Translations under genes and position numbers: made by a program
In this document: positions 29,401 through 32,358 of the stretch, one piece after another
Layout: every line of letters begins with the position of its first letter
Position numbering within the stretch: the first letter of the stretch is position 1
Notes under the pieces: generated by a model
The model's database searches: none
What the model was told of the DNA's origin: nothing
The model's input: the letters and a program-made list of their open reading frames with translations, nothing else
Source: Pseudomonas rhizophila
Lineage (GTDB): Bacteria; Pseudomonadota; Gammaproteobacteria; Pseudomonadales; Pseudomonadaceae
DNA length: 64,000 nucleotides
Direction: 5' to 3'
Assembly (NCBI RefSeq): GCF_003033885.1
Contig: NZ_CP024081.1
Span: forward strand, 4,714,388-4,778,387

Positions 29401-31991
29401 AGTACCTGGGGCGTCTCGACCATCAGGTGAAGTTGCGCGGCCAGCGCATCGAGCTGGGGGAAATCGACGCCGCACTGCTCGCGCAGGCCGGTGTTCGCGA
29501 TGCCGCTACCTTGTTGCTCGACCAGCGCCTGGTGAGTTTCTGGTGCGGAGACGCCGATGAGGCGACCCTGCGTGCCGAGTTGAGCGACAGCCTGCCCGCG
29601 CACATGCAGCCCAGCCTGTTCGTGCAGCTCGACAGCCTGCCGCTCAACAGCAACGGCAAGCTCGACCGCAAGGCATTGGCCGCCACGCCGCTGCCACAGA
29701 GCCAAAGCGACCAGCCGCGCACAGCACCGCGCAACGCCACTGAAAGCGTACTCTGCGAACTGTTCGGCGAAGTGCTGGGTTGTTCGCCAGTCGGCATCGA
29801 AGATCACTTCTTCCAACTCGGCGGCCACTCCTTGCTGGCCACCCGCCTGGTCAGTCGGGTCCGTGAGCGCCTTGGGGTTTCCCTGCCCTTGCCGCTGGTG
29901 TTCGCCCAACCGACGGTCGCGGCCCTGGCCGAGCATCTGCGCGCGGCCATGCCCGGTGAGTCGATCAGCGCACAACCGCGCCCGGCGCAATTGCCCCTGG
30001 GTCTGGCCCAGCGCCGATTCTGGATGCTCAGTCGCCTGGTGCCGGAATCCCGCGAGTACCACATGCCGTTTGCCCTGACCTTGCGCGGTGAGCTGCAGGT
30101 CCAGGTCTTGCGCGAGGCCTTTGAGCAGCTCAGCCAGCGCCATCTGGTGCTGCGCAGCCGGATTGTCGAAGTCGACGGCGAGCCGCAATTGCTGATCGAC
30201 GACCACGGACCGGCGCTCGCGGTCACTGAAGTCGCGACCCAGGACTGGGCCTCGGCCTGCGCCAACGCCCAGGACGAACTGATGACAGCGTTCGACCTGG
30301 CCGCCGCCGCACCTTGGCGCGCGCATCTGCTGCAACGTCAGGGCAGCGACGAAAACCTGCTGCTGGTGTGCCTGCACCACAGTGCCACCGACGGTTGGGC
30401 CATGCAGTTGCTCATCGACGAACTGACCCAGGCCTACGCCGCCGGCCTCAACGGGCAGTCGCCGGCCTGGACGCCGCTGGAGATCGACTACGTCGATTTC
30501 GCCCTGTGGCAACAGCACCCGGACACCCAGGCCCGACGCAGTGACAGCCTGGACTACTGGAAAAACCACCTGGGCCAGGAAGACTACCAACTCGACCTGC
30601 CCATCGACCATCCGCGTGGCGCCGAAGCAGATCGTCGCGCTCGGCAACTGACCCTCCGTCTCGGCACCCAGCGCGCCGAAGCCATCCGTCAGTTCGCCCG
30701 TCAGCGCGGCACCACCACCTATGTGGTGCTCGCCACGGCCTTGAACGCGCTGCTGGCGCGTTACAGCGGTCAACGGGAGATTCGCTTCGGCACCCCGGCG
30801 GACCAGCGTGATCAACCGCAAGCCCAGACACTGCTGGCCTGTCTGGTCAACACCCTGGTGATCCGCAGCGACGTCGACCAACGGGCTCCGGCCGAGCAAT
30901 TGCTCACCAGCCTTGAGGCCGACCTGCGCGCAGCCCAGGCCCATGCCGACCTGCCCTTCGCCACCCTGGTCGGTGCTGTCGCGCAAAACCGCGACCTGAA
31001 CCGTACACCGCTGTTCCAGGTGCTGTTCTCCCTCAACTATGGCCGGGTGGACAGCAGCCAATGGCCGGGGCTGAACGTCGAAGAGCAGATGCTGCCGGTG
31101 ATCGACGCCAAGTTCGAACAGAGCTGGGAAGTCCAGGACGATGGCAGCGACATGACGCTGGCGCTGGAATACCAATCGGCCTTGTTCGACGAAACGACGA
31201 TGCAACGCTGGAGCGCGCAGTGGTGTGCGCTGCTTGATGCCTTGGTGGCAACCCCTGGGCGCACGCTGGTCGAACTGTTCCCGCAACAGCAGGATCAGCA
31301 GCAACTGGATCGCTGGAACGCCACCGAACGTCACTACAGCGGCCCGACCAACCTGCACACCGCGCTCAGTCAACAGGCAGCTCTGAGCCCCAACGCCCCA
31401 GCGCTGGTGTTCGAAGGCCAGCGCCTGAGCTATGCCGAACTGGATCAACGGGCGCAAACCGTTGCCCGGGCCCTGCGCGCCGCCGGTGTAGGCACCGACA
31501 GCATCGTGCCGCTGTGCATGGAGCGTTCGGTGGAGATGGTCGTGGCCTTGCTCGGCATCGTCCATGCCGGCGCCGCGTGGTTGCCGCTGGACCCGGAATT
31601 GCCGGCCGCGCGCCTGGCGTTCCTGATCGAAGACGCCGATGCCAAGGTCACCTTGACCCAGGCGCAGTGGCTGGCGCGCCTGCCCGCCGGGCATCAGGCC
31701 TGGACCCTCGACACTCTGCCCCAGGCCCCAGCGTTCGAGCCGATCAGCGTTGAAGCTCACGACCTGGCCTACGTGCTCTACACCTCCGGTTCCACCGGCC
31801 AACCCAAAGGCGTGATGAACGAACACGGCGCCTTGATGAACCGCCTGCACTGGATGCAGGACGCCTTCCCGATTGGCCCGAACGACCGTGTTCTGCAAAA
31901 GACCCCGTACAGCTTCGACGTGTCGGTGTGGGAGTTCTTCTGGCCGCTGATCACCGGCGCGACCCTGGTGGTCGCCCGCCCGGACGGGTGA
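20439..31991 (+). CDS. Giant NRPS, C-A-T x3 then C and a truncated A domain
   Basis: 3850 codons encode: C (HHILMDA 148-154), A with pocket DIWELTADDK, the known Dab code, T (Ser1020); C (HHLVSDA 1215-1221), A with pocket D-S-A-E-L-G-T-V-D-K, unassigned, T (Ser2090); C (HHCATDD 2280-2286), A with pocket DVWHFSLIDK, a serine code, T (Ser3131); C (HHSATDG 3313-3319), then an A domain from about 3640 that stops at ARPDG, just after core motif A4. The last A domain lacks the A5-A10 motifs and so cannot work; there is no carrier, thioesterase or epimerase after it. Codes were aligned by eye. The protein would extend acyl-His with Dab, X and Ser, then stall. AGGA precedes the ATG. Confidence 0.92.
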   Translation: MTSEKTTGNPIEDIYPLSPLQQGMLFHSLLHEDSGVYLMQDRYRIGGAIDEGAFLESWRQVVALHPSLRASFQWKSQKQPVQVIHRQVKVPLDTLDLRGLAPHEQEARIRTLLEDEQKVGFNLSKPPLIRFRLVRLADESYEFIRSFHHILMDAWCISLVTVDFLKVYEALCNDRTPELKSPRPFRDYIQWLQRQDAGKAEQFWRGQLQGLNAPTPLTVDNGVTRDRYTDAVLVDDQLIHLNEQETQALAAFCRNRRITPNTFFQGVWSLLLARYSGQQDVVFGVTVAGRPADLTGVAQMIGLFINTLPLRVSVDPNATLGNWLGDLQKLNVDMRDFEHTPLTDIQGWSDFPRGETLFDSILVFENAPIDEQILEGGFQFSLEGMDHSVHTHYGLTVVILPGEQLGIRVSYDRERFEAATVQRLLGHIANLVRSMLAAPDAPLASFELLAAEERQQLLGEWALNRHDFPLDQSYAELFAAQVAQRGDQVAAICAGESLTYAELDLRSTRLAHALREAGAGADQLVALVAPRGLALLTMMLAVFKAGAAMLPLEVNHPPERLREILGLSRAPLLVASEACSGLLDQLLSGLDRGPEALFAEACWTSGNDAPLPVLAGPDSLAYVLFTSGSTGTPKGVMIEQRGMLNNIFGKVPALGLSAADRIPQTASVAFDISVWQFLAAPVLGATVHILPDEVAHDPQRLLQVLASERLNVLEIVPSLMRTLLALCPCDLQLPDLRWVLPTGEALPPTVARDWFARFPDIALMNAYGPAECADDVAFQPIFEAPGAEVSHMPIGQPTANNRLYVLDEALRPVPVGVAGEICVGGVGVGRGYLHDPQRTADAFIDHPQLEGRLYRTGDLGRWRADGVIEYLGRRDQQVKLRGHRIELTEIEHRLAQHPNVREAAVLLRENTAGEAWLVAYWAAHDESLGSDDLSEHLRAQLPPYMVPAAFVCLDKLPLNNNGKVDRKALAARELDWQADTQHSIAPRNALETSVASVWAEVLGRDTVGVEDNFFTLGGHSLLATQIVARLRTQFKLDLPLRVLFEQPTVALLAEAIGARQAEAAAPQSSTLNMHQARPRPTLLPLSFSQQRLWFIEQLTPGTTLFNIPFALHLKGELDIEALHASLNDLLVRHEILRTGIHNNNGVPCQRISPALDISLPFEDLSSLTATARAGAQFNALQDTFEQPFDLTCPPLLRARLLRLAPDEHVLGIALHHLVSDAWSATIALRELALGYEARCKGAAAELPALPLQYADFALWQREHLQGAELKRQLDYWTTTLDRRDSDASPLLALPTDHPRPSVQSYRAGIVQRELSADLSGRVQAFASRLGTTPFTVLFAGFAVLMHRLSGDATVLVGTPVTHREQPGTEGLLGILLNNLAIRADFEPQADFTALVKQVAERLRSGLLHQDLPFEQLVDSLQLPRSLSHAPLYQVMVAQQLAMESRLRFPGLEFEALDTPLRHSECDLDLHVLCPANAPIQLELMFALDLFVADSARQTLARLEHLLEHMLAEPQRPVAALPLLMDAEWQRTVVEWNRTEMAVPTHLTFAQLFEQQAERTPERDALCFEGRSLSYGELNRRANQVAHYLRNCGVGANRPVALCVERSLELLVGLLGILKSGGAYVPLDPTYPVDRLAYMLEDAQPALFLGQQGLLEQLGAELPRLRLDSDAALFANQPDSNPAPLAGPQDLAYIMYTSGSTGKPKGTLVTNGSVVNLAWARIHGLYRRYTDQPMRTSFNYSFAFDSSVAELILLLDGHSLYLTPEDVRYDPEALAGFFRDTRLEAFECTPAQLKALLESDGVRRGEVYLPRFVLFGGDAVDAQLWQRLPSIAGSRFFNTYGPTECTVDATGCAVDDFPLRPIIGRPIANVRTYVLDAFLNPMPVGVPGELHIGGAGVTLGYLNRAEQTAKVFIEDPFSSQPGARMYKSGDLVRWLPDGQLEYLGRMDHQVKIRGLRVELGEIETLIGAQPGVRQAVVLAREDVPGDKRLVAYVTCDQQADIHAWRKSIGAALPDYMVPSAFVLLDELPLTDNGKLNRKALPTPDIHAAPDALQPPRSAAEQQLAALWAELLNVPSSQIGRDSHFFYLGGHSLLAAALFARLRQQFASVPPLRSVFEHPTLEALAALLGDPLQAPAATFAAPARPARLPLSFEQQRLWFLEQLSAGGGEYNVVSAVQLDGELNVQALQTALDGVVQRHEILRSRIVRDSDGELALIVEPQVAITLQVTPLQAASDEQWQQLTDAAIHAQTGRRFDLAAEVPVRATLLQRSGGAQSLLLLSLHHCATDDASSQNLLDELRQFYTAQCQGTPAALPALALQYPDYALWQREPSQQTAFSSQLEYWRNQLEDGDYLLDLPTEQGRPNQLAPAAGAVQLQLPSALVARLRQFAQQRGATLYMLMLGAAQLLLGRYANQRDVRVGSPVAQRPFAELQPLIGCFVNTVVMRADLDPTLDFEGLLGQVRNRVLDAQQHQDVPFDQVVEHLKPSRSLGQTPLFQVLFAMQNADSSSQPWPQLQVSERAVTAQATKYDLNWEVHDGEVLSVLLEYRAALFSETTARRWLEQWQQLLETMLEAPQTRLGDWSPLPAAERQRQLVEWNATERNYSGPTDLHTALSQQAALSPNAPALVFEGQRLSYAELDQRAQTVARALRAAGVGSDSIVPLCMERSVEMVVALLGIVHAGAAWLPLDPELPAARLAFLIEDADAKVTLTQAQWLARLPAGHQAWTLDALPQAPAFEPINVEAHDLAYVLYTSGSTGQPKGVMNEHGALMNRLHWMQDAFPIGPNDRVLQKTPYSFDVSVWEFFWPLITGATLVVARPDGHRDPAYLSQLIQQERVTTLHFVPSMLRAFVEEPSLINCHSLRQVFASGEALPVDLVRRFMGQHPAALINLYGPTEAAIDVSVWRCSANDVIVPIGKPIANLRLYILDEAMQPLPIGSIGELYIGGVGVARGYLKRPDLTEERFLASPFVAGDRLYRTGDRCRFLADGNIEYLGRLDHQVKLRGQRIELGEIDAALLAQAGVRDAATLLLDQRLVSFWCGDADEATLRAELSDSLPAHMQPSLFVQLDSLPLNSNGKLDRKALAATPLPQSQSDQPRTAPRNATESVLCELFGEVLGCSPVGIEDHFFQLGGHSLLATRLVSRVRERLGVSLPLPLVFAQPTVAALAEHLRAAMPGESISAQPRPAQLPLGLAQRRFWMLSRLVPESREYHMPFALTLRGELQVQVLREAFEQLSQRHLVLRSRIVEVDGEPQLLIDDHGPALAVTEVATQDWASACANAQDELMTAFDLAAAAPWRAHLLQRQGSDENLLLVCLHHSATDGWAMQLLIDELTQAYAAGLNGQSPAWTPLEIDYVDFALWQQHPDTQARRSDSLDYWKNHLGQEDYQLDLPIDHPRGAEADRRARQLTLRLGTQRAEAIRQFARQRGTTTYVVLATALNALLARYSGQREIRFGTPADQRDQPQAQTLLACLVNTLVIRSDVDQRAPAEQLLTSLEADLRAAQAHADLPFATLVGAVAQNRDLNRTPLFQVLFSLNYGRVDSSQWPGLNVEEQMLPVIDAKFEQSWEVQDDGSDMTLALEYQSALFDETTMQRWSAQWCALLDALVATPGRTLVELFPQQQDQQQLDRWNATERHYSGPTNLHTALSQQAALSPNAPALVFEGQRLSYAELDQRAQTVARALRAAGVGTDSIVPLCMERSVEMVVALLGIVHAGAAWLPLDPELPAARLAFLIEDADAKVTLTQAQWLARLPAGHQAWTLDTLPQAPAFEPISVEAHDLAYVLYTSGSTGQPKGVMNEHGALMNRLHWMQDAFPIGPNDRVLQKTPYSFDVSVWEFFWPLITGATLVVARPDG
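28218..28892 (+). repeat. 675-bp direct repeat, copy 1 (third A domain of giant NRPS)
   Basis: This segment covers the linker and N-terminal third of the Ser adenylation domain. It recurs without gaps 3096 bases downstream at about 95% identity or more by eye. The last 228 bases (28665-28892) are identical in both copies. In this copy the domain continues normally after the repeat. Confidence 0.9.
31314..31988 (+). repeat. 675-bp direct repeat, copy 2 (ends at the NRPS break)
   Basis: Second copy of the adenylation-domain repeat. Its 228-base perfect stretch (31761-31988) ends exactly where the coding frame meets a stop (31989-31991) and homology to NRPS sequence ends. The coincidence of repeat end and gene end points to recombination, gene conversion or an assembly join at this place. 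Confidence 0.9.

Positions 31992-32358: not shown

Follow-up and report, generated by a model that had tools for sequence, protein, structure and literature searches.

Is a corrugatin-type synthetase gene of Pseudomonas rhizophila truly cut short, or falsely joined at repeats in its assembly?

The 64,000-nucleotide window of Pseudomonas rhizophila DNA considered here carries a giant nonribosomal peptide synthetase (NRPS) gene of a siderophore cluster, whose reading frame breaks off inside an adenylation (A) domain. The question raised by this locus is whether the gene was cut in the bacterium or in the assembly of its genome. We find that the cut is almost certainly a false join of contigs at repeats and not a deletion, the missing half of the gene, along with a thioesterase and exporters, being found elsewhere in the same genome. 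The analysis was made from sequence only, using nucleotide matches within the genome and to relatives, and profile matches to Pfam and NCBIfam. Positions without a prefix refer to the window, and those prefixed C1 to the single contig listed for this genome (5,948,515 bases). The features around the cut are as follows:

20439..31988, plus strand: NRPS gene, first part, with three A domains in full and the front part of the gene's fourth
28665..28892, plus strand: repeat copy 1, 228 perfect bases inside a complete A domain
31761..31988, plus strand: repeat copy 2, the presumed end of the left contig
31988..31989, no strand: probable false join of two contigs
31989..32280, plus strand: right end of an IS110/IS1111-type insertion sequence (IS), with the last transposase codons, the noncoding region and the right end itself; 292 bases, 100% identical to a full copy at C1:1519.1-1520.5 kb
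32261..32272, plus strand: right subterminal inverted repeat of the IS, GGGGGTGACCAT, whose reverse complement is carried by left ends
32281..33456, plus strand: FAD (flavin adenine dinucleotide)-dependent oxidoreductase (Pfam PF01266), an unrelated neighbour

The truncated frame and its internal repeat

The NRPS open reading frame (20439..31991, 3850 amino acids) ends in a TGA codon at 31989-31991, and the cut falls within the AMP-binding domain PF00501 by Pfam, in line with the earlier note on this DNA, which had placed the stop inside an A domain. Its count of this domain as the fifth holds for amino-acid A domains, the leading fatty-acyl-AMP-ligase-like domain being excluded. The stop codon lies within the last transposase codons of the IS, read out of frame. 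We likewise recover the reported repeat: the 228 bases before the stop are the same as 28665-28892, identity ends at 31988 and 28892, respectively, and NRPS homology is lost past the same base 31988. This perfect run sits in a 695-base stretch that is 95.5% identical between the two A-domain copies.

The description of the cut as lying at the exact end of a perfect repeat stands for the window, where the run does end at 31988, but not for the genome: beyond an interval of ~80 bases absent from the assembly, 214 more perfect bases shared with the earlier copy are found on the separated second half of the gene. Since identity to the earlier copy resumes there, the apparent end of the repeat is most likely a contig end rather than a biological border; if the ~80 unseen bases were identical too, the perfect repeat would span ~522 bases. 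Directly downstream of the cut region lies the FAD oxidoreductase and, just as had been noted, no carrier, thioesterase or exporter. What had been overlooked is that 31989-32280 is not plain intergenic DNA but the right end of a multicopy IS.

The missing half and the relatives

A search of the genome for a piece with the rest of the A domain that ends in a thioesterase, which had been suggested as a check, recovered the second NRPS half in the same assembly at C1:4427818-4406953, minus strand, with ~92% identity to P. zanjanensis over 18 kb. By Pfam, it opens with the remainder of the cut A domain (profile positions 285-384), after which come a carrier and a condensation domain. The next protein combines two A domains with a TauD-type domain, and is followed by one in which a partial condensation domain precedes A, carrier and thioesterase (PF00975) domains. 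Two ABC transporters close this stretch, the first of them passing the cut-off of TIGR01194, a family of cyclic peptide exporters. The start of the second half at 4427818 immediately adjoins a run of exactly 100 N (C1:4427819-4427918). On the far side of this gap, from C1:4427919 upwards, lies the rear of a gene resembling an OprD-type porin by eye; its front is probably at another contig end.

These findings bear directly on the proposal that intragenic recombination between the A-domain copies deleted the downstream modules and left the strain unable to make the siderophore. A long perfect repeat and the lack of any NRPS sequence after the cut in the window speak for such an event, whereas the modules expected downstream, along with the thioesterase and the ABC transporters, lie at 4.41-4.43 Mb, and recombination would leave one copy that continues normally, not one joined to an IS end. 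We consequently reject the deletion, to which we give a negligible probability, and the implied loss of the siderophore falls with it.

Two relatives were read past the cut at the level of single bases, and in both the halves belong together. The window side ends at 2711435 and the second half starts at 2711516 in P. zanjanensis, and the corresponding break places in P. brassicacearum are 271958 and 272041. The orthologue is one frame of 4677 codons from stop to stop in both, and the frames after it have 3430/3416, 1293/1297 and 574/584 codons (P. zanjanensis and P. brassicacearum, respectively). Twelve relatives, drawn from 24 Pseudomonas loci (the non-Pseudomonas locus L059 being excluded), were additionally checked by the place of their matches. 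Nine of them (G029, G031, G032, G034, G035, G036, G037, G039 and G040) carry gene start and second half together on a single contig, ~11.6 kb apart, while the remaining three (G030, G033 and G038) have the halves on two contigs. The contig with the second half starts inside the repeated stretch in G030 and G038 and at its edge in G033. Across all 24 loci, seven end, as do their contigs, at positions equivalent to 28247-29326 of the window, i.e., inside the repeated A-domain stretch 28199-29479; in most of the others the 10-kb flank ends short of the second copy, which would leave later breaks invisible there. In a genus sample of 398 genomes, this one included, 26 matched the NRPS gene, and 23 were retained on excluding the weak matches G290, G349 and G416. 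Frames of 4629-4757 amino acids are seen in 13 of these 23, including six of the seven other single-contig genomes.

The insertion sequence and the state of the assembly

The right end of the IS occurs in four places including the window, the other three being 99.7-100% identical over 292, ~296 and 265 bases. An IS110-family DEDD transposase (PF01548 and PF02371, with NF033542 above cut-off) is encoded by the full copy at C1:1519.1-1520.5 kb, which has ~260 noncoding bases from the transposase stop to its right end and, close to either end, an inverted repeat of 12 bases (ATGGTCACCCCC / GGGGGTGACCAT). A DEDD transposase, subterminal inverted repeats and noncoding sequence following the transposase gene are given as the usual marks of the IS1111 group in the available text of a Nature Communications paper (PMC11187229). 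The element shares all three marks as they are listed in that text; at the join, it is represented by only its right 292 bases.

The mate of this right end is the IS left end at C1:3339650-3339903. The left adjacency of the oxidoreductase was compared in four relatives (P. tehranensis, Pseudomonas sp. Q11, P. brassicacearum and P. zanjanensis). In P. tehranensis and Q11 its immediate left neighbour is the sequence found here at C1:3346490-3339876, on the minus strand (98% identity), and this neighbour ends at the left-end fragment 3339650-3339903. As the split flanks are adjacent in these two relatives, a single IS copy between two neighbours shows up here as two contig ends.

That an IS insertion into the NRPS gene truncated it might be proposed from the IS sequence starting where the NRPS homology stops. 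However, only a right end is present, which starts within the final transposase codons, and the NRPS border has no left end; beyond this right end lies not NRPS but a region that adjoins other DNA in two relatives; and the three left ends found in the genome follow terminator-like hairpins. With the right end alone and an unrelated far flank, a simple insertion is rejected, and we accord it next to no likelihood.

The other places where the element or its pieces occur show several irregularities. The left-end fragment at 3339650 is joined without Ns to a frame (C1:3337406-3339793) that is Rhs-like by eye, and the border of the two at C1:3339649 is likely another false join. The copy at C1:5412735-5413307 consists of 312 bases of the left and 262 of the right part but has no middle; it may have lost this by a real internal deletion, or two pieces may again have been joined without Ns. 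At C1:1520520 the right end adjoins a tuf gene without its front, and at C1:2328735 it sits behind what appears by eye to be the end of an IS3-type transposase; these two are probably further hidden joins. As to target choice, which was judged from three left flanks, all three left ends read (near C1:1519166, 5412771 and 3339869) follow a GC-rich, terminator-like hairpin (GGGGCATT or GGGCATT, and then the IS); in P. tehranensis, where the site is empty, a hairpin of this kind is found together with a T run. This suggests that the element is a terminator-targeting, RNA-guided IS. The available text of PMC11187229 makes no mention of intrinsic terminators as IS targets, and an Rfam scan of 31900-32400 returned one match, far below the gathering score.

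The assembly as a whole bears the signs of an unfinished one. This genome has one complete 16S ribosomal RNA gene and one 133-base piece, the latter shortly after a second 100-N run, while all eight single-contig Pseudomonas genomes used as a control have 3-6 16S matches, with at least three full-length in each (32 full-length and three partial among the matches listed). Runs of exactly 100 N were found in two of the eight stretches of C1 checked besides the window. One copy of tuf, after an IS right end, has no front, and a second tuf frame, open for 405 codons, contains one N. Single- and two-base Ns also occur in the IS transposase (C1:1519979) and near rRNA genes (C1:4998494-4998498 and 3049991-3053126), as expected for the consensus of collapsed repeats.

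The false join proposed by the earlier note as one of two readings is supported by these lines of evidence together: the missing half beside 100 N, the split IS, the collapsed 16S genes and the collinear relatives. Repeats are found on both sides, the 228-base repeat on the left and the four-place IS end on the right. The true continuations of both lie elsewhere at borders, that of the NRPS at the 100-N gap and that of the IS at a left-end fragment joined without Ns; and the 16S deficit and the N runs accompany them. We envisage that two A domains in the same NRPS gene, nearly identical to each other, formed a repeat of up to ~520 bases, presumably longer than the reads. The assembler would have stopped 228 bases into the perfect stretch of the second copy, with the next contig beginning ~80 bases on. 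A separate contig starting with the 292 IS-end bases would have been placed directly behind the first with no Ns, probably in a scaffolding step, and the true continuation ~319 kb away, reversed, beside the 100-N gap. Given that the left contig stops at 228 bases and that the IS fragments elsewhere measure 254-312 bases, the data suggest reads of ~250-300 bases.

Several observations weigh against this explanation. There is no N run at 31988/31989. The seventh of the other single-contig genomes, G312, has a short frame of 2460 amino acids. The oxidoreductase and its left neighbour are ~2.1 kb apart in P. brassicacearum, and in P. zanjanensis only the oxidoreductase was matched, its left adjacency not being found. 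Finally, one inversion of the ~319-kb block would rejoin the NRPS halves. Hence, a real rearrangement may be considered, e.g., such an inversion with breakpoints in the A-domain repeat and an RNA-guided IS1111-type element, by which the synthetase would truly be split into two half-genes; IS elements are, moreover, common at real breakpoints. However, the other side of this inversion is a 100-N scaffold gap, and it would not mend the IS/oxidoreductase adjacency, as the missing flank lies at 3.34 Mb behind the IS left-end fragment. Several breakpoints at repeat edges and collapsed 16S genes also fit a scaffolded draft better. We regard a real rearrangement as quite improbable, if less so than the deletion or the IS insertion, and favour the false join of contigs throughout what follows.

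Repeat-induced fragmentation and misassembly of clusters for NRPSs and polyketide synthases are documented in the available text of PMC5484115. The cases given there likewise involve breaks and misjoins at the repeats of modular synthases; unlike those, the present record is presented as one contig, with the break thereby hidden.

The siderophore cluster and its relatives

The genes upstream of the truncated one complete the picture of the cluster:

7876..9309, minus strand: diaminobutyrate--2-oxoglutarate transaminase (NF005393, above cut-off)
9420..11480, minus strand: TonB-dependent receptor (Plug and barrel; best NCBIfam match TonB-siderophor, below cut-off)
12675..16142, plus strand: AMP-binding (fatty-acyl-AMP-ligase-like), carrier and condensation domains, start of the lipopeptide cluster (NCBIfam ligase models match below cut-offs)
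17312..20380, plus strand: NRPS gene preceding the truncated one, with a partial condensation domain, an A domain and a peptidyl carrier protein domain (Pfam)

The Pfam tally of amino-acid A domains over both halves is eight: one in the preceding gene, three complete and one split in the truncated gene, and a further two and one in the proteins that follow. This fits the ornicorrugatin-like product of eight residues predicted for the clade in the available part of PMC4528175. The same source describes corrugatin/ornicorrugatin clusters in SBW25 (PFLU3220 and 3222-3225), P. corrugata, P. mediterranea, P. brassicacearum NFM421 and P. fluorescens F113. With these, as far as that text describes them, the present cluster has in common the AMP-ligase-like starter, the diaminobutyrate transaminase, the TonB receptor, the eight A domains, the TauD-type domain, the thioesterase and the ABC transporters. 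It differs from them in being split by what is very probably a false join, and in being known from its genes alone. The eight A domains, the AMP-ligase-like starter and the terminal thioesterase PF00975 mark it as corrugatin-type. It is collinear with the P. mediterranea and P. brassicacearum loci and, save for one missing A domain, with that of P. corrugata as far as the P. corrugata contig reaches; the main aligned blocks show ~79-96% DNA identity to the 24 Pseudomonas loci.

The copy in P. corrugata thus differs from the cluster here in being without one A domain. The orthologous NRPSs of P. corrugata DSM 7228 (L049 17790-17794) and P. fluorescens ISL-33 (L045 17766-17767) are each without exactly one A domain, in frame. 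The missing piece is 1470 and 1473 bases, respectively, against P. mediterranea, equivalent to ~25105-26571 of the window. The flanking domains are kept, leaving condensation - carrier - condensation, and the junction residues differ between the two. Of 11 other loci compared, the three most similar to that of P. corrugata (93.9-95.5% DNA identity) retain the domain. No third genome with a contiguous form of this kind was found among the 23 with the gene in the 398 sampled, the two that were found being the same two loci (100% over 3.6 kb). As the junctions differ and the domain is present in close relatives of P. corrugata, two independent, clean losses are possible, both being seen in draft assemblies. 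A module of this form would need its carrier to be loaded by another A domain.

A 2015 survey, again as far as the available text of PMC4528175 goes, found the cluster divided over two contigs in all of its P. corrugata and P. mediterranea drafts, with no split point stated in that text; this published split is probably the same repeat effect. The A-domain repeat is a point at which corrugatin-type clusters are broken in several independent draft assemblies. A record listed as one contig hides joins made without Ns, and claims of gene loss, synteny or rearrangement at repeats in this genome are not to be trusted without reads. As regards the organism itself, the recovery of the second half averts a false conclusion of siderophore loss: nothing shows such a loss, and the junction does not decide, as had been supposed, whether the strain makes the siderophore. 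Judging by its genes, P. rhizophila would carry an intact, working corrugatin-type cluster.

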